From Gammaproteobacteria bacterium (GTDB lineage Bacteria; Pseudomonadota; Gammaproteobacteria; Pseudomonadales; Azotimanducaceae_A), in NCBI GenBank assembly GCA_012960755.1, contig DUAT01000012.1:123085-169560 (forward strand): DNA of 46,476 nt. Direction: 5' to 3'. Below the pieces are notes generated by a model, which searched no databases, had not been told where the DNA came from, and was given only the letters and a program-made list of their open reading frames with translations. Within the stretch, counting starts at the first letter, position 1, and each line of letters opens with the position of its first letter. The position numbers were made by a program, and so were the translations under genes. Positions 1,542 through 44,702 of the stretch are shown here, in pieces.

Positions 1542-1601
1542 GGAACCTCTGGTTGGTACGGCACACCGAGATGCGGCACACCGACCTTAATCAGAGGTTC
1601 C
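1542..1601. terminator. Long intergenic hairpin between convergent genes (possible bidirectional terminator)
   Basis: GGAACCTCTG (1542-1551) is perfectly complementary to CAGAGGTTCC (1592-1601). Inside it GTTGGT can pair with ACCGAC allowing one G-U. The right arm overlaps the last codons of the HD-GYP gene. The loop holds an 11-nt exact direct repeat, CGGCACACCGA, at 1559-1569 and 1574-1584. There is no T tract, so it is not a textbook intrinsic terminator. Confidence 0.4.
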
Positions 1602-3359
1602 CTTCAGGTATTCCTGAATATCCACACTGTCGATTTGGCTGGACCGGAGGAATTTATTTGCATAATCCATATAAACCCCACTGGTTAAGAAGAGCTTAAA
1701 CAGGTCCGGATCCAGATGATGATCAAGTACCATTTTGCCCATTATCCTGATGCTGGTGCTAAGTGTTTTTGCCGGTTTATAGGGCCTGTCGGCAGCAGTC
1801 AGGGCTTCGAAAACATCAGCAATAGCCATAATTCTGGCGGGAATCGACATGTCCTTGCCGTGAATCCCTTTCGGAAACCCAGTTCCGTCCATCTTTTCGT
1901 GATGACCACCGGCGATTTCCGGCACCTGTTCAAGATGTTTTGGAAATGGCAGGCTCTCCAGCATGACAATCGTCTGCACGATATGATCATTGATCTTGAA
2001 TCTTTCTTCCTTCGTTAAGGTGCCGCGGCTGACACTCAAATTGTAAACCTCACCCAGGTTGTACTTGTATTCCGGCACGTCGACTTTAAAACCGTATGAA
2101 TTATTCGGGTCAGAAGAATGAATAACGACATCATGTTCAACAATGTGATCGTGACGATCCTCCAGTAGCAACTCCGAACAAGGAACCTGTTTCTGGCGGG
2201 TGCGATTCTTGCGGTTTGTTTCGTCAAAGGAGATGCCCAGGCGATCATCCAGTGTTCGGGTCCATTTAATTTCTGCTATTTTCCTGACCCGCTCGATTCG
2301 GTCCTCCGCCATAAATTCACCGCCGACATTGCATTCGGCGATGAACGCGAAGTCTTCGTCTAACGAGACAAGCTTCGCGTCTAACTCATCTTTTAGTTCC
2401 TCTGGATTTGCAGCACCGTCCAACAATTTTTTCTGGTACTCAATCATGTGTTCAGCTTTAACGAGTTCAAATCGCATTCGAATCTCGTGAATGCGGTCGG
2501 TAATGGTTTCAAGTTTGGTAGATTTGTCGACCACGTGCTCCGGGGTGATTATCTTGCCGCAATCATGAAGCCAGGCTCCAATATGCAATTCATACCATTG
2601 CTCATCGTCAAGATTGAAAGTCTTAAACGGTTCTGCGTTGGAATCACAAGCGGCTGCTGTCAACATCTCTGTTAATTCCGGTACGCGTTGACAGTGACCT
2701 CCCGTATAGGGTGACTTGGCGTCCACGGTACTTGCCATCAGGCTAATAAACGAATCCAAAAGATTCTTCTGGGAATCAAGTAAATTTTGATTTTCCAACG
2801 CAATTGCAGCCTGGGAAGCCAGGGCTTCTATCAACGGTTGGCTCTCGATCGAAAATGAGCAGACCTGCCCCGTTTCCGGGTCAAGCGAATTTATCAGTTG
2901 TAATACGCCGATTACATGGCCAGTGTTGTTTTTTAACGGCACCGCAAGGAGTGATTTGGACCGATACCCCATCGTGTCATCAAATATTTTGGCGCTTGTA
3001 AAATCGAACTCTTCCGTCGCGTAGGCGTCAGCGATATTGATTGTTTCACCCGTATTCGCCGCGTAGCTGACAATTGCCTTGAGATTCGGGTTGTCGGCGG
3101 TGTCGAACATCTCAATGGGTGCCATTGATATTTCTGTCCCGCTGGTACCGCCTTCGGCAATGCCCAGGGAATCTGTCCTCAACATTTCGAACTTGAGTGC
3201 ATCCTCCCTGGTGCGAATGTAAAGCGTGCCCCCGTCTGCGTTGGCTATGTCCTTGGCCTCAAGCAGAATCCGCTCCATCAGGCGATTGACATCTTTCTCA
3301 GCAGACAACGCGATCCCGATATCAATCAACCGTTTAAACGAAATCTGCTCGGAAGTCAT
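1587..3359 (-). CDS. GAF domain / HD-GYP domain protein (putative cyclic-di-GMP phosphodiesterase)
   Basis: A 590-residue cytoplasmic protein. Residues ~8-195 form a GAF sensor (RLIDIGIALSAEK start, GVLQLIN core). The HD-GYP part begins at GHCQRV (H222), with HDCGK at 265-269 and HHEKMDGTGFP around 486-496. The loop reads GFP rather than GYP, a common variation. All metal-binding histidines and aspartates appear present, so c-di-GMP hydrolysis is plausible. Unusually, about 160 charged residues (~285-445) lie between the HD motif and the TLTKEER helix; in compact HD-GYP domains these are almost contiguous. The ribosome site AGGG lies 6 nt before the ATG, inside a tandemly duplicated 13-mer. 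The SDR gene 45 nt upstream is probably co-transcribed. Confidence 0.9.
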   Translation of the reverse strand: MTSEQISFKRLIDIGIALSAEKDVNRLMERILLEAKDIANADGGTLYIRTREDALKFEMLRTDSLGIAEGGTSGTEISMAPIEMFDTADNPNLKAIVSYAANTGETINIADAYATEEFDFTSAKIFDDTMGYRSKSLLAVPLKNNTGHVIGVLQLINSLDPETGQVCSFSIESQPLIEALASQAAIALENQNLLDSQKNLLDSFISLMASTVDAKSPYTGGHCQRVPELTEMLTAAACDSNAEPFKTFNLDDEQWYELHIGAWLHDCGKIITPEHVVDKSTKLETITDRIHEIRMRFELVKAEHMIEYQKKLLDGAANPEELKDELDAKLVSLDEDFAFIAECNVGGEFMAEDRIERVRKIAEIKWTRTLDDRLGISFDETNRKNRTRQKQVPCSELLLEDRHDHIVEHDVVIHSSDPNNSYGFKVDVPEYKYNLGEVYNLSVSRGTLTKEERFKINDHIVQTIVMLESLPFPKHLEQVPEIAGGHHEKMDGTGFPKGIHGKDMSIPARIMAIADVFEALTAADRPYKPAKTLSTSIRIMGKMVLDHHLDPDLFKLFLTSGVYMDYANKFLRSSQIDSVDIQEYLKGTSD

Positions 3360-20150: not shown

Positions 20151-21359
20151 TTAAGCGGTTTTGGACTCTATTTCGGTCCAGGCAACAACCCGGTTTCGAC
20201 CGAGTGATTTGGCTTTGTACATGGCCTTGTCTGCCTGGGATATCAAGTCCCTGGATAACAGTTTTTCGGTCGGGATTACTGTGGCATGACCAAGGCTGAT
20301 GGTCACACCAATCTTGTGCCCATCTGCATCTATCTCTAAATTTTCAACATGCACCCTGACCTGTTCGGCCATCTGATGTGCATTATCGGCTTCAATATAA
20401 GGCAGAATCACAACAAACTCCTCCCCACCATATCGGGCAACAATATCCGACGGCCTGTGAAACATGCCCTCGACAGCACCTGCGACTGCGGCGAGGCACT
20501 CATCCCCGGCGAGATGACCGTGGCTGTCATTGACGACTTTGAAATGATCAATATCAATCAATATCAGGGTGACCGGATAACGCTGACGCAACGCACGCCG
20601 CCATTCCTGTTCAAACGACTGGTCGAAATACTGACGGTTTCGAATCGACGTCACTGGGTCAATGGTCGTGAGATCTTTAAGGATCACGTGGGCCTGGGTA
20701 AGTTTATCCAGGGCTTGTTTCAACTGGGCTGTACGTTCATCAACCTCGACTTCCAATTGCTTTCTCAGTTCAACCTGCTCATCCAGCAGATTCCGGTTTT
20801 CAAGCGCTACACTGGCCTGGGACGCAAGTGCTTCAACAAGGGGTATCACAGCTGAAGAGAAAGGGACTACCTTACCGCTGGTGCTCTTTGCATTTAATAA
20901 CTGTAAGACGCCGATGGTCTCTTCCAGGGAGTTCCTCAAAGGTACAGTCAGAAATGACTTTGACTTATAGCCGGTAAGTTCATCGAATTTCCGGGTTGCA
21001 GAGCCGTTGATACTGGATTCAAGATAGATGTCTTCAATGACGATGGTCTCACCGAGATTTGCAGATCGTGCGGCGATGGTACCCATATTATGTTCGCCGT
21101 CGGAGTTAACCAACGGCACATCTGGTAGTGTCGATGCGCCCACATTTCCGCTCTGGGAAATATTCAGAGTGTCGTTAATGACAATAGCGAACGACAGGCT
21201 GGCTTGACCCGTCGCCAGATAGACTGTACCGGCGTCCGCATTGGTAAGCGTCTTGGCTTCCATCAGAATCCGTTCGAGTAAACTGTCTATGTGCTTCTCT
21301 GCACTTAAAGCAAGGCCAATATCGATCAAACGTCGATAAGCGCCTGAGTCAATTTTCAC
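20151..21359 (-). CDS. GAF-GGDEF diguanylate cyclase
   Basis: A 402-residue cytoplasmic protein. The N-terminal GAF domain (~10-195) opens with RLIDIGLALSAEK and closes with ALASQASVALENRNLLDEQ, nearly the same words as the HD-GYP protein at 1587-3359. A coiled coil (~195-228) links it to a GGDEF domain with active site GGEEF (311-315). The product-inhibition I-site RxxD is intact (RPSD, 302-305), so the enzyme should make c-di-GMP and be feedback-limited. It lies downstream of the TRAP genes on the same strand but 229 nt away, probably with its own promoter. It converges with the aminotransferase gene, the two stops being 22 nt apart. Confidence 0.93.
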   Translation of the reverse strand: MKIDSGAYRRLIDIGLALSAEKHIDSLLERILMEAKTLTNADAGTVYLATGQASLSFAIVINDTLNISQSGNVGASTLPDVPLVNSDGEHNMGTIAARSANLGETIVIEDIYLESSINGSATRKFDELTGYKSKSFLTVPLRNSLEETIGVLQLLNAKSTSGKVVPFSSAVIPLVEALASQASVALENRNLLDEQVELRKQLEVEVDERTAQLKQALDKLTQAHVILKDLTTIDPVTSIRNRQYFDQSFEQEWRRALRQRYPVTLILIDIDHFKVVNDSHGHLAGDECLAAVAGAVEGMFHRPSDIVARYGGEEFVVILPYIEADNAHQMAEQVRVHVENLEIDADGHKIGVTISLGHATVIPTEKLLSRDLISQADKAMYKAKSLGRNRVVAWTEIESKTA

Positions 21360-31777: not shown

Positions 31778-32272
31778 ATGGCAGCCGATAAATTCCCGGT
31801 TGAAGCCGGGCATATCATGATGTTTGCGCGTTCAATTGGCGACGCAAACGAAATTTACTACGACGATGAGTACGCGAAGACAACAGAACCCGGTTGCACT
31901 ATAGCACCGCCGACGTTTGTCCAGGCGAGCGCACAATTTGACTCTAACTATTTCTTGCGACCGAAGATCGGTGAAGAATGGTTTGGATCTGCAAAGGAAG
32001 CGACCGGTATCAGCAAGCGAGAAGGTGGTGGCGGTGGTGGCGGTGGCGGTGGCTTACACGCTGAACAACACTACGTTTATCATCGTCAAGTGCAAGCCGG
32101 AGATGTTCTCACCGCGACAACCAAACCAGGTAATTCCTGGGAAAAAGAGGGCCGTCGAGGCGGCAAGCTCAAGTTCAGCGAATCCGTTACTGAATACCGT
32201 GATTCAGCCGGAGAACTCGTTGTTACTGCAACCAGCGTTGGTGTTCAGACTGAACGCCCCGCAACATCATAA
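31778..32272 (+). CDS. MaoC/FAS1-like dehydratase subunit, non-catalytic partner
   Basis: 164 residues of the hot-dog-fold N-terminal dehydratase type found in HadA/HadC-like subunits. The position that carries D-x4-H in active MaoC hydratases reads GDANEIYYDDE, so the catalytic histidine is missing and the subunit is probably structural. A run of ten glycines (32024-32053) precedes LHAEQHYVYHRQVQAGD, a conserved block of this family. GGGAG lies 7 nt before the ATG. The catalytic partner begins 13 nt after the stop. The 296 nt between it and the RAYT gene show a short ACAGT/ACTGT dyad and no gene. Confidence 0.85.
   Translation: MAADKFPVEAGHIMMFARSIGDANEIYYDDEYAKTTEPGCTIAPPTFVQASAQFDSNYFLRPKIGEEWFGSAKEATGISKREGGGGGGGGGGLHAEQHYVYHRQVQAGDVLTATTKPGNSWEKEGRRGGKLKFSESVTEYRDSAGELVVTATSVGVQTERPATS
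32024..32053 (+). repeat. Ten-glycine GGN codon tract
   Basis: Ten consecutive GGT/GGC codons in the dehydratase subunit gene. Trinucleotide tracts of this kind can change length by slippage in units of one glycine. Confidence 0.9.
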
Positions 32273-32285
32273 AAGGAGTATCGAC

Positions 32286-32708
32286 ATGGCATTAAATGCA
32301 AGTGAACTTAAAATCGGCGATACCTATGAAGAAGAAGTATGTCGCAATCTTTCCCGAACGCAGATCGTCCAGTATGCCGGTGCATCAGGTGACTACAACC
32401 CCCTGCATAGTGATGAGGTGTTTACTACACAGATTGCGAAATACCCTTCAGTATTCGCTCACGGTATGCTATCCATGGGCATGACAGGCAAAATGCTGAC
32501 AAATTATGTCGGTGATGGCAGATTGAAAAGCTATGGTGTGCGATTTACGTCACAGGTTTTCCCCGGAGCAACACTCACAGCCTCAGCGACCATTACGGAC
32601 ATCCGGGAAGAGGATGGAGAACATATCGCTGACATCACTGTTTCAACAAAGGACGACGCGGGTACCGAAGTCATTAAGGGGCAAGCCAGCGCGCGCCTCG
32701 ACCCTTAG
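32286..32708 (+). CDS. MaoC-family enoyl-CoA hydratase/dehydratase, catalytic subunit
   Basis: 140 residues from ATG 32286, with AGGAG 7 nt upstream. The hydratase-2 motif is complete: ASGDYNPLHSD with Asp and His, followed by FAHGMLSMGMTGKML. It adds water to a trans-2-enoyl-CoA (R-specific) or removes it from a hydroxyacyl thioester. Together with the preceding non-catalytic subunit it resembles HadAB/HadBC- and ChsH1/H2-type heterodimers that accept long or bulky acyl chains. A strong terminator follows. Confidence 0.92.
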   Translation: MALNASELKIGDTYEEEVCRNLSRTQIVQYAGASGDYNPLHSDEVFTTQIAKYPSVFAHGMLSMGMTGKMLTNYVGDGRLKSYGVRFTSQVFPGATLTASATITDIREEDGEHIADITVSTKDDAGTEVIKGQASARLDP

Positions 32709-37288: not shown

Positions 37289-39322
37289 ATGCATAGATCT
37301 CATAACCCGGAATACTCGACATTGACCAGTATCGAAGCACTGAAAAATTATCTGCTGTCGAACTTCCTGGCGTTTTTTATACTGGCCATCCTTACCGGAC
37401 TTGTCGCCATTGTTGTTCTGGCACCTTTTAAGCTGGCCTTCCTCAATTTTTTCTTTTTACCGGTTTTACTCGCTGCCTATTACCTTAATCTGCGAGGCAC
37501 CCTCCTGGGCAGTCTGTTCACAGTCACCTGTGTTTTTCTCGCTGCTTTTTTCGCGCCAGAGTTGTTCGCCCCGGAAGAATCAACCCCTTACCTGCTGACT
37601 TTCCTGCTGAGTTGGGCAGGATTTCTGATCGCTGCGGCTCTGGTGGTTAACACCCTGCAGGAAAATTTTCTGGGAAAACTAACCTCTCTACTACCCTGGC
37701 TTAAAGATGTCTCAGCAGGCAAATTGTTACGGATGACCACAGCGGAACTAAACGACTATGTGCAGAACCTGGACGGCGGGATTGACGGTGGCACAGGAGA
37801 TGTCGAGAAGATTGACGTTGCGGCCGAAAAACAAAGGATCGAGGACGCCTTGTTCTCAACCATGGATCCTGTCGTCGCCCAGTTGTTAATCGAGAAACGA
37901 CTACGAACTGAACTCCGGCGCATTAGCATTCAGTTTTGCGACATCCAGAATTTTACCGGTTACTCCGAGAAAAACCCCGCAGAGGTCGTTATCACCAGAC
38001 TGAACAAGCATCTCGAGAAAATGGAAAACACCTTGTTCGAATACAAGGCACATATCGACAAATATTTAGGTGACGGAATCATGTCCGAGTTCGGTGCCCC
38101 GACCCACTATGACCAGCATGCACTTCTGGCAGTGGTCGCCGGAATAAAAATGCAGGAAAGCGCTGCCCGGGATGAATCGTCCTGGGCAATGCGCATTGGC
38201 ATATCCACGGGCGATACCATTACCGGGCTGATTGGACACAGACGCCAAGCCTATACGGCAATGGGAGATTCGGTGAACCTGGCTGCGAGGATTCAAGAGG
38301 TCGGCCGACTGGGTAAGGTGACTGTCGATGAAGCAACACAGCATGATACGCGCCGATATATCCGCTATCGACGAAAGTCCATCCTCCAGCCAGAAGCAAC
38401 TGCCCCTTCATTGTTACGTGAACAACTGGTCCCCATGCTGAACGCGTTGGATGGGGATCCATCTAACATAGAACATATGATGAACTGCGCTCAGATCTAT
38501 CTGCAGCTGGACGATCTACTCTCCTGCCTGGATCTCGTAAAACGGGCGCTCAACATCGACTCGGAGCACCTTGCAGCAAAGTTATTGTATGCAGAAGCTT
38601 CACTGAAAAGTGATCAAATGGACGACATCAGTCTACGCGGCCGACAACAAACGCTGCACCTTTACGAGGTCGAGGGGATTGTCAATCCACTGCACAATCA
38701 AGAAAAAATCCCCCCCCTTCTGCTGCAGCAATATGAGGAAATTGTCAGCAGTCTGGCAGCCTACCCGGAAGATATTCTGTTACCCGTCGAATGCATTGAA
38801 GGGTACGTTGGTCATTCCAGGGTCGTCGGGTTTCTTGCCTACGCTATCGCTGATCGTTTGAATCTGCCAGATGAGGTAAAACGCGATGTACTGGAGGCGG
38901 GTTATCTGGCGGACATTGGAAAGTCAATCATCCCGCATCATCTGCTGAACAGACGTGGGACTTTGAGCCGCGAGGAATTCAAGAGCATTAAAGGCCACCC
39001 GGCTGAGGGAGTCAGAAAGTTAAAACAACTGGGTTACACATCTGAAAGCGTGCTCGAAATGGTCGAAAATCACCACGAAAACTACGATGGTAGCGGCTAT
39101 CCGTCCGGCAAAGATAACGCGCAGTTCTCCATCGGTGCAAGAATTATTGCAGTCTCGGAGGCCTATGACTCAATGACGTCCTGGCGACCCTATCGTGAAA
39201 GTTGGGAACGACAAGCTGCCTTGACAGAACTGGAACAGTACTCAGGCAGGGGCAAGTTCGATCCGCGTGTTATGCAGGAACTCACACATTTATTGTCACC
39301 ACCGGCAATTAGTACAGAGTAG
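37289..39322 (+). CDS. Class III adenylate cyclase fused to a degenerate HD-GYP domain
   Basis: 677 residues. Four or more membrane helices (~22-122) form an N-terminal anchor. A class III cyclase domain follows (~205-345): metal aspartates in FCDIQNFT (D218) and GDG (D262), the adenine pair K258 and T323, and transition-state N330 and R334 in GDSVNLAAR, all as in adenylate cyclases. A TPR-like helical linker (~380-440) leads to an HD-GYP domain (~500-670) with GHSRVV (H509), HHENYDGSGYP (595-605) and AYDSMTSWRPYR. The HD pair itself reads LADIGK (541-542), Ala-Asp instead of His-Asp, so one metal ligand is gone and phosphodiesterase activity is doubtful. It may sense c-di-GMP and control cAMP synthesis. 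No ribosome site is obvious. Confidence 0.9.
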   Translation: MHRSHNPEYSTLTSIEALKNYLLSNFLAFFILAILTGLVAIVVLAPFKLAFLNFFFLPVLLAAYYLNLRGTLLGSLFTVTCVFLAAFFAPELFAPEESTPYLLTFLLSWAGFLIAAALVVNTLQENFLGKLTSLLPWLKDVSAGKLLRMTTAELNDYVQNLDGGIDGGTGDVEKIDVAAEKQRIEDALFSTMDPVVAQLLIEKRLRTELRRISIQFCDIQNFTGYSEKNPAEVVITRLNKHLEKMENTLFEYKAHIDKYLGDGIMSEFGAPTHYDQHALLAVVAGIKMQESAARDESSWAMRIGISTGDTITGLIGHRRQAYTAMGDSVNLAARIQEVGRLGKVTVDEATQHDTRRYIRYRRKSILQPEATAPSLLREQLVPMLNALDGDPSNIEHMMNCAQIYLQLDDLLSCLDLVKRALNIDSEHLAAKLLYAEASLKSDQMDDISLRGRQQTLHLYEVEGIVNPLHNQEKIPPLLLQQYEEIVSSLAAYPEDILLPVECIEGYVGHSRVVGFLAYAIADRLNLPDEVKRDVLEAGYLADIGKSIIPHHLLNRRGTLSREEFKSIKGHPAEGVRKLKQLGYTSESVLEMVENHHENYDGSGYPSGKDNAQFSIGARIIAVSEAYDSMTSWRPYRESWERQAALTELEQYSGRGKFDPRVMQELTHLLSPPAISTE

Positions 39323-42974: not shown

Positions 42975-44702
42975 CTAGCTGTCTGCCCAGAGGGACAGCA
43001 GCAGCGCGCCGAACAATAACGCGCTCATAGCTTGCCAGAACAGCAGTGGGTTGCGTTCCAACAGCGGCGCTTTTGCCCGTTTGTTGAGCATGTCCTGATT
43101 GGGCTTCCTCAGATCTTGCATAAACTCGGACAGCGCCTGATATCTGTCGTTAGGAGAAGGGGCTGTTGCTTTTTGCAGGCATAGATCGACCCACAGTGGA
43201 AGATCCGGGCGGAACTGCAAGATGGATCGGTAGCGCCAATCACCGAAATGTGGCTTACCATTCAGCTTGTGGGTGGGCACTTTGTACGGCAGCTCGCCGC
43301 TCAGCATTTCATATATCAATACACCCAGGGAAAAGATGTCCGACCGGTACATACCAGGCTGGTCGAGCAGATACTCAGGTGCCATGTAGCTGGTGGAACC
43401 GACCGGATATTCCTCGGCGATATGTGACGCCAACTCGTCGAGTCCCGCTACTTGTACTGTGCCAAAGTCGATCAGCTTGATGTTCAGGTCATCATCGACC
43501 ATAACGTTTTCGGGTTTCAGGTCCCGGTGCACCATGCTCAGGCGTTGAAATGCCCGCAAGGCACCGGTGATCTGTTCCGCCAGACGGCGCGTGGTTTCAA
43601 GGCTGGGGTGGTCGTTGTCTAGCATCCACTGGCTTAAATCCCCATGCGGAAGGTATTCGAACAGGTTGTACATGAAATTCGTATCGTGGGGTCTGGCTAC
43701 CACTTTCATGACGTTGAGGTGATTGACCCGCAATCCAACCCATTGTTCACGCACGAAACCCTGTAGATATTGAGGATCCTCATCGAAGTTCTGCGAGGGC
43801 GTCTTGAGCACCAGCTTTTTTGCATCCTCCGGAGACTCGACCAGATACAAGTGGCTGCGCGGGCTGGTATGTAACACCTGGCTCACCCGGTACCCGTCGA
43901 TGGAATTGCCTTCTGACATAACCGGAGGAATAGCCTGGGGATGCGCCTGCATTTCATTGTAGTTGTCCTCTGGTAAGGTATGAACCTTTAGAAACAGGCA
44001 GCTCAGGTTATCATCGCTGCCGTTCCGCAGGGCGTGGTTGGCGATGCGCTCGCCACTCCTTTCCAGGTTAGTTGTATCATCGTTTACCAGAGACTCCATT
44101 TCTCCCCGTTGCAGATAATCGTGAACGCCATCGGTCGTGAGCATGAACACATCACCTTGGCGTACCTGCACCGTGGTGTGGTCGACCTGCAGTCTGGTGT
44201 CCAGCCCCAACGCACGGGTGAGGACAGTGCGATTCCCCGCGACCGAGGCAAAGTGATCGGTAGTCAGTTGCTCGAGGACACCGGTGCGCAGCAGGTAGAT
44301 GCGGCTGTCACCGATGTGAAAAATGTGCGCCGTGCGAGACTTCACAATTACGCAACTCAATGTAGTCACCAGAGATTCAATGTTCAGATGTGGGCCGCCA
44401 TTGTGATACAACCACGAATTCATGGCATGCAACACACGCGAGGCGGACTCTCTTACGCTCCACGTATCCGGTGTGCTGAAATAATCGCTGATGAAGTGAG
44501 TGACGGCAAGCTGGCTCGCGACCTCGCTGCGGGTGCTACTGCTTACCCCATCCGCGATGACCGCAACGGCGCCCTTGAACATGTTGGCCGACTTGTTACC
44601 GGCGAGGGCAGCAAATGCATCCTGATTGACTGGCTTCAGGCCTGCTGTAGTGTGGCCACCAAAAACTACCTTGAGTTGGTTGGAACTTGCGCGTGTCATC
44701 AT
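42975..44702 (-). CDS. Bifunctional PP2C phosphatase / Ser-Thr protein kinase of the nitrate assimilation cluster
   Basis: 575 residues. The PP2C domain (~10-240) keeps the metal aspartates: NQDAF (D28), ADGVSSS (D51), TTDGVHD (D191) and DDNLS. The kinase domain (~270-530) keeps the ATP lysine (K300), HRDLKPEN (392-399), DFG (412-414) and APE. Its glycine-rich loop is degenerate (VLHTSPRSHLYLV lacks the glycines). One C-terminal membrane helix (~552-570) anchors it. The gene lies 35 nt after the nitrate transporter gene on the same strand. Such fused proteins recur in nitrate-assimilation operons of Pseudomonas relatives and probably adjust the transporter or nitrite reductase by phosphorylation; targets are not known. 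Confidence 0.92.
   Translation of the reverse strand: MMTRASSNQLKVVFGGHTTAGLKPVNQDAFAALAGNKSANMFKGAVAVIADGVSSSTRSEVASQLAVTHFISDYFSTPDTWSVRESASRVLHAMNSWLYHNGGPHLNIESLVTTLSCVIVKSRTAHIFHIGDSRIYLLRTGVLEQLTTDHFASVAGNRTVLTRALGLDTRLQVDHTTVQVRQGDVFMLTTDGVHDYLQRGEMESLVNDDTTNLERSGERIANHALRNGSDDNLSCLFLKVHTLPEDNYNEMQAHPQAIPPVMSEGNSIDGYRVSQVLHTSPRSHLYLVESPEDAKKLVLKTPSQNFDEDPQYLQGFVREQWVGLRVNHLNVMKVVARPHDTNFMYNLFEYLPHGDLSQWMLDNDHPSLETTRRLAEQITGALRAFQRLSMVHRDLKPENVMVDDDLNIKLIDFGTVQVAGLDELASHIAEEYPVGSTSYMAPEYLLDQPGMYRSDIFSLGVLIYEMLSGELPYKVPTHKLNGKPHFGDWRYRSILQFRPDLPLWVDLCLQKATAPSPNDRYQALSEFMQDLRKPNQDMLNKRAKAPLLERNPLLFWQAMSALLFGALLLSLWADS

Follow-up and report, generated by a model that had tools for sequence, protein, structure and literature searches.

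Cyclic di-GMP (c-di-GMP) and cyclic AMP (cAMP) are two main bacterial second messengers, and a gene at 37289–39322 (+) in a 46,476-nucleotide stretch of gammaproteobacterial DNA (contig DUAT01000012.1, positions 123,085 to 169,560; hereafter the window) raises the question of whether one protein could relay the former to the latter. The open reading frame starts with ATG and encodes 677 amino acids, in which a class III cyclase is followed by an HD-GYP domain lacking the histidine of its HD motif. With a probability of about 0.5, we read the product as a cyclic-dinucleotide-gated adenylate cyclase whose HD-GYP domain is a receptor and no longer a phosphodiesterase, the ligand most likely being c-di-GMP.

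Architecture of the cyclase and its HD-GYP domain

Pfam matched Guanylate_cyc to residues 210–352 (E 2.6e-22) and HD_5 to residues 507–661 (E 4.8e-34), both far above the cut-off, while TPR-type models touched residues 386–447 below it. An AlphaFold2 model built from 92 sequences reached a mean predicted local distance difference test score (pLDDT) of 84.0, with ten-residue means of 86–98 across residues 491–670; one built from 53 sequences scored lower, at a mean of 76.9, and all fold comparisons quoted here use the 92-sequence model. Both are single-chain models. The parts of the gene are as follows.

37289–39322 (+): whole gene, 677 residues, comprising membrane helices, coiled coil, class III cyclase with a TPR-like insert and degenerate HD-GYP domain (open reading frame, Pfam, model)
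37328–37663 (+): four predicted membrane helices, residues 14–125 (model; MASE1 match sub-threshold only)
37664–37906 (+): probable coiled coil and a helix pair leading into the cyclase, residues 126–206 (model)
37907–38383 (+): class III cyclase strands 1–7, residues 207–365 (Pfam, residue alignment, model, fold comparison)
38384–38653 (+): TPR-like four-helix insert, residues 366–455, with helices at 375–444, between cyclase strands 7 and 8 (Pfam, model)
38654–38680 (+): last cyclase strand, residues 456–464, around HLYEVEG (model, fold comparison)
38759–39307 (+): degenerate HD-GYP domain, residues 491–673 (Pfam, alignment, model)
38909–38911 (+): codon GCG for A541 at the place of the HD histidine (PmGH H221, DvhD S559; alignment)
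39071–39103 (+): HHENYDGSGYP motif, residues 595–605 (sequence)
39185–39196 (+): RPYR motif, residues 633–636, aligned with DvhD R650/Y652/R653 and PmGH R314/K317 (alignment)

The HD position reads LADIGK rather than HDxGK, with A541 encoded by GCG within AGYLADIGKSIIP, and the HHExxDGxGYP motif is intact as HHENYDGSGYP, exactly as an earlier note on this DNA had described. We compared the domain with PmGH, an active c-di-GMP phosphodiesterase (PDB 4mcw, PMC4159591). PmGH H189, D222, K225, H250, H276/277, Y285 and R314 correspond to H509, D542, K545, H570, H595/596, Y604 and R633, whereas the HD histidine H221 is replaced by A541, E185 by G505, K317 by R636 and the metal ligand D305 by E624, a conservative change that the earlier note does not list. 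Thus the window protein has A541-D542 in place of the HD motif expected of an active phosphodiesterase, and only H509, D542, H570, H595 and H596 remain of the metal-ligand set (E185, H189, D222, H250, H276, H277 and D305). According to PMC4159591, E185 is also absent from a whole active HD-GYP subfamily, the H221A mutation essentially abolishes PmGH activity while D305A retains some, and K225 is needed for activity.

In class III cyclases, two aspartates bind metal, a lysine and a threonine or aspartate recognize the substrate, and an asparagine and an arginine serve the transition state. The window protein has the full set (D218, K258, D262, T323, N330 and R334), and each of these residues is kept in 308 to 315 of the 315 aligned family sequences described below (Thr or Ser counted at position 323). 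Comparison with solved cyclases found the catalytic fold in the model, and the protein should, judged by its residues, make cAMP. The anchor is predicted as four helices from residue 14 to about 125; the modelled N-terminal helices span residues 14–24, 26–44, 48–65, 68–88 and 99–142. The last of these runs into the coiled-coil region, which continues with helices 145–166, 175–191 and 194–201 and has pLDDT below 50 at 141–150 and 164–177. The membrane-anchored cyclase with all catalytic residues proposed in the earlier note was thus borne out by the alignment and the model helices. At the very start of the gene (37289–37333), the residue aligned with window position 15 is Met, probably the start, in 90% or more of the 53 members aligned; the window protein has Ile (ATC) there, so either its N-terminus is longer by 14 residues or its start is unusual.

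The match to solved cyclases extends from about residue 205 to 465, yet only some 156–180 residues align. In the model, strand 7 (358–365) and strand 8 (456–464) are separated by helices 375–389, 394–406, 410–423 and 428–444. Removal of residues 369–444 let the Pfam cyclase match reach profile position 175 of 183 instead of 153 and raised its score from 79.8 to 86.2 bits, and the stretch aligned with residues 366–446 is 79–84 residues long in all 315 sequences. The strand order, the gain upon removal and the constant length place a TPR-like bundle between the last two cyclase strands, with the HD-GYP domain following strand 8 through a linker. The insert, which the earlier note does not mention, is a likely coupling element; we infer this route, since the literature on the strand 7–8 loop offered only its packing in Rv1625c (excerpt of PMC4174876). 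PADLOC matched the cyclase part to PycC (residues 203–336, E 2.3e-16), but a Pycsar defence role was set aside, the match being to the cyclase alone and no search for Pycsar effectors having been made.

Loss of the HD histidine in most of the family

The family is large: a protein search from the window protein scored 7998 sequences, 685 of them with an E value no higher than 0.001, and the best 120, the window protein included, were examined. All 120 contain both domains and the match spans 95–100% of the window protein in every one. Aligned at the HD position, a check that the earlier note had proposed, none of the 120 has His at 541, and such uniformity argues that neither the domain pair nor the loss arose by chance. 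A contig scan with a search pattern that left out the His position confirmed 164 stretches, of which the best 80 loci were kept; one frame runs from cyclase to HD-GYP in 78 of them (some N-termini are cut by contig ends), and the HD His is present in 9 of the 78. We then used a His-bearing Nitrospinota member as the query of a second search, whose best 120 of 571 matches added 117 proteins, 61 of them with the His and one (P0153) without the domain. The combined alignment of 315 sequences holds 244 without the His, 70 with it and one gap; it is no census, as some loci duplicate listed proteins and the share of His depends on the second search.

By record title, the relatives belong to Pseudomonadota, Acidobacteriota, Nitrospirota, Nitrospinota, Thermodesulfobacteriota, Myxococcota and Rokuibacteriota. 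From these alignments, loss of the HD His is a trait of the family and no quirk of one genome, and because relatives in several phyla share it, the HD-GYP domain is probably a sensor. The nine loci with the His, seven from Nitrospinota and two from Nitrospirota (both isolate SZUA-226), form one branch of an 86-row tree with an SH-aLRT (Shimodaira–Hasegawa-like approximate likelihood ratio test) support of 100. A FastTree tree of all 315 rows, built from the columns before the HD-GYP domain, likewise puts the 70 His-bearing sequences on one side of a single branch (one change). The contrast in kept and lost residues between members with and without the His is only suggestive for this reason, since it reflects one event on the tree.

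Among the 244 members without the His, the metal ligands were lost to differing degrees: H509 is kept in 138, D542 in 159, H570 in 218 (Tyr in 26), H595 in 119 (Ser in 111) and H596 in 238, with Asp at 624 in 123 and Glu in 119. The parts of the pocket are retained (R633 in 244, L559 in 242, R636 in 233, Y604 and Y635 in 232 each), and K545 is present in 231. Among the 70 with the His, Y635 occurs in 26 and Arg or Lys at 636 in 9.

Members are often named HD-domain phosphohydrolase or c-di-GMP phosphodiesterase class II, sometimes adenylate cyclase, and the phosphodiesterase label is probably wrong for those without the His. Pseudoalteromonas denitrificans DSM 6059, a culture-collection strain, carries one, and its genome has 15 HD_5 matches. 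Motifs were read in 14 frames, the fifteenth match apparently falling in the same frame as another: HDxGK in 10, ADIGK in one (the family member), EQLGK in one and no motif in two. Loss of HD is therefore an exception in this genome, though not a unique one. Of 99 genomes of its genus searched, two carry an intact gene and one a broken remnant (query residues 321–675, five stops; L083). Elsewhere in the family, L040 comes from a metagenome bin titled Bordetella parapertussis; its protein pairs with that of L038, an uncultured beta-proteobacterium, and the title may be wrong.

Candidate roles of the HD-GYP domain

The alignments and the model establish the architecture, show that most of the family has lost the His but retained GYP and R-x-Y-R, match the fold to that of DvhD and locate the insert. 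DvhD is the solved HD-GYP protein nearest in fold, and PMC13090378 reports that it binds c-di-GMP at about 99 nM without hydrolysis, its HD being changed to SQ. Seven of its nine site residues (Y523, L577, K582, Y621, M646, R650, Y652, R653 and E668) are identical in the window protein, among them L577 (L559) and Y523 (Y506). Over the 244 His-less relatives, five of the nine contacts are strongly conserved and M646 is mostly Leu. Ranked by conservation among 171 columns in the His-less members, R633 stands 5th and L559 12th, and the HD His position 124th. A receptor role is plausible, with DvhD as its structural precedent. In this mechanism, the membrane-anchored cyclase would be a homodimer, as is inferred from its class; a bound cyclic dinucleotide would alter the HD-GYP dimer, and the effect would reach the cyclase by the short linker that follows strand 8 and by the inserted TPR-like bundle, moving cAMP synthesis in a direction that may be up or down. 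More tentatively, we propose that the protein represents a widespread, undescribed class of c-di-GMP-gated adenylate cyclases in which a pseudo-phosphodiesterase HD-GYP domain drives cAMP synthesis via the bundle in the strand 7–8 hairpin, forming a one-protein relay from c-di-GMP to cAMP in Gammaproteobacteria, Acidobacteriota, Nitrospirota and the former Deltaproteobacteria.

Several observations weigh against a c-di-GMP receptor. DvhD K582, a phosphate contact, and E668, which sets base specificity, are replaced by F564 and Y651, neither of which is conserved, and Y506 is Ser in most relatives. We had expected the contact columns to outrank the metal-ligand columns, but the nine contacts were not better conserved than the seven ligands in 98 non-redundant His-less sequences (Mann-Whitney p 0.61). 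Retention of GYP and RPYR singles out no receptor, because active HD-GYP enzymes have both and, as excerpted from PMC4159591, the R314A and K317A mutations did not much reduce PmGH activity. By sequence, DvhD is not the closest solved protein: the HD-GYP part scored E 6.8e-19 with PmGH, 1.8e-18 with V-cGAP3 and 7.8e-17 with DvhD, and with a family profile V-cGAP3 comes out ahead of DvhD, and DvhD ahead of PmGH. Five of the seven metal ligands tested are present in the window protein, together with the conservative Asp-to-Glu change, so metal binding is possible. In addition, 28 of the 70 His-bearing sequences have the same architecture and all seven ligands. Finally, GGDEF domains were present in 16/16 family genomes tested and cNMP-binding domains also in 16/16, as the proposed relay would require, but this is weak support, both being widespread in the control genomes too (8/14 and 10/14, respectively).

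The receptor interpretation of the earlier note accordingly stands in part. The His loss proved to be a family trait, the GYP Tyr and R-x-Y-R are kept and DvhD offers a precedent; on the other side, the note had held that homologs of the same architecture with intact HD and normal phosphodiesterase activity would refute it, and half of this holds, as one Nitrospinota-type branch (70/315) does keep the HD His, 28 of its members with all seven ligands.

The alternative that survives best, unlikely as we consider it, is that the HD-GYP domain is a ligand-free scaffold, which dimerizes the cyclase or docks a partner protein and senses no nucleotide. Metal ligands were lost in differing ways (H570 to Tyr in 26/244, H595 to Ser in 111/244), two DvhD contacts are not kept, and PMC4159591 reports GYP-dependent protein contacts for RpfG, which requires this motif to dock GGDEF proteins. 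A scaffold would, however, hardly account for R633 in 244/244 and the conserved pocket-facing Y604 and R-x-Y-R, and the nearest fold is that of a nucleotide receptor.

It is less probable still that the domain is a receptor for another nucleotide such as 3'3'-cyclic GMP-AMP (3'3'-cGAMP) or the linear dinucleotide pGpG. This is raised by the absence of the DvhD base-specificity residue (Y651 for E668), by the affinity of DvhD itself for 3'3'-cGAMP (about 501 nM, PMC13090378) and by the presence of V-cGAP3, a 3'3'-cGAMP phosphodiesterase, among the closest solved sequences. The ubiquity of GGDEF domains, the usual makers of c-di-GMP, in the family genomes speaks for c-di-GMP instead, cGAMP makers not having been searched for.

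We regard it as quite improbable that phosphodiesterase activity persists in the domain around an altered metal centre, which would let the protein both make cAMP and remove c-di-GMP. The window protein does keep H509, D542, H570, H595, H596 and K545, with Glu at 624, its best solved sequence match is the active PmGH, and all seven ligands occur with the same architecture in 28/315 sequences. Against this, H221A essentially abolished PmGH activity, and further ligands are often lost in relatives (H595 is kept in 119/244 and D542 in 159/244). Among the 28 themselves, R633 is present in 27 and Y635 in 25, but position 636 is Ala in 21 and Arg or Lys in 2, K545 occurs in only 9 and the full R-x-Y-[RK] in none; the last count is not independent evidence, as all belong to one branch. 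Lastly, a decaying, dispensable remnant is scarcely credible: the HD His position does vary freely in His-less members, but matches over 95–100% of the protein in 120/120 and residues such as E501, G544, L559, G582, E597, G603 and R633, invariant or nearly so across phyla, speak against drift.

The Nitrospinota-type branch with intact HD and the same architecture (L039, L041, L043, L045, L051, L056, L059, L062 and L068) divides into one part in which the D305 position is mostly Asn and another in which K545 is often Asn and R636 mostly Ala. Its members are possibly, as far as residues can tell, bifunctional cyclase/phosphodiesterases or receptors of a different ligand.

Genomic surroundings and comparison with known systems

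Among the 78 loci, 46 of which have 3 kb on both sides, no neighbour gene was common to different branches. Divergent from the gene lie a GntR regulator (15 loci), an HlyD-type protein (14) and an AcrB-type protein (14), identified by scans of representatives, the nearest listed loci belonging to the gammaproteobacterial branch; an M50 protease occurs in 9 loci of the delta branch. A trigger-factor-like frame, read by eye, occurs in 8 loci, within 225 bases in five and 3.5–5.5 kb away in three from Nitrospirota. Of six window neighbours only DsbD has a partner elsewhere (L001). Since these clusters recur within branches only, the context names no pathway. Spread by plasmids found no support: 1044 plasmid records match the protein somewhere, but none of them over 80% of its length.

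The window encodes other signalling proteins. At 1587–3359 (-) lies a GAF and HD-GYP protein with intact LHDCGK and HHEKMDGTGFP, in which 221 residues separate HD from HHE, against 54 in the cyclase family (about 167 extra), a spacing that recalls the inserted HD-GYP of Leptospira LIC_11189 (excerpt of PMC12943098). Its GAF part is 45% identical over 194 residues (E 6e-51) to that of a GAF-GGDEF protein at 20151–21359 (-), and by sequence the two are probably a c-di-GMP maker and remover with sister sensors. A protein phosphatase 2C fused to a Ser/Thr protein kinase is encoded at 42975–44702 (-). At 31778–32708 (+), frames 31778–32272 and 31917–32708 overlap where several glycine codons follow one another, which may reflect a repeat or a problem with the frame.

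The earlier note knew of no described family combining cyclase and HD-GYP, and literature searches found none: no paper among those listed names such a protein in its title or abstract start, in searches that left out subscription journals and supplements (the supplementary HD_5 architecture tables of PMC8846402 may list the pair). The available excerpts of PMC1183210, PMC9239204, PMC5932348, PMC12943098, PMC7288161, PMC6416229, PMC10519070, PMC8846402 and PMC6717892 do not describe the family. LA2383 keeps HHExxDGxxGYP without HD, and no cyclase is named for it in the excerpts of PMC5932348 and PMC12943098.

Unlike the class III adenylate cyclases CyaB (3r5g) and CyaC (1wc0), the window protein ends in an HD-GYP domain and has TPR-like helices, about 80 residues in all, placed between strands 7 and 8; an insertion between the last two strands points to a control site of class III cyclases of which we met no description. 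DvhD of Desulfovibrio vulgaris (PDB 9rbz, PMC13090378) has a periplasmic dCache and a PAS domain and, as excerpted, controls a periplasmic protease, whereas the window protein is a cyclase; DvhD has lost the double His as well as HD, whereas H595 and H596 are kept here, and its K582 and E668 have no counterpart. Like the window protein, Bd1971 (PMC6717892) and, reportedly, XC_0249 (PMC3770947) each join both messenger networks in one protein, but the signal runs in reverse there, with cAMP or cGMP acting on c-di-GMP turnover. If the receptor reading is true, the cyclase/HD-GYP family would run from c-di-GMP to cAMP, opposite to the one-protein links met so far in such sources.
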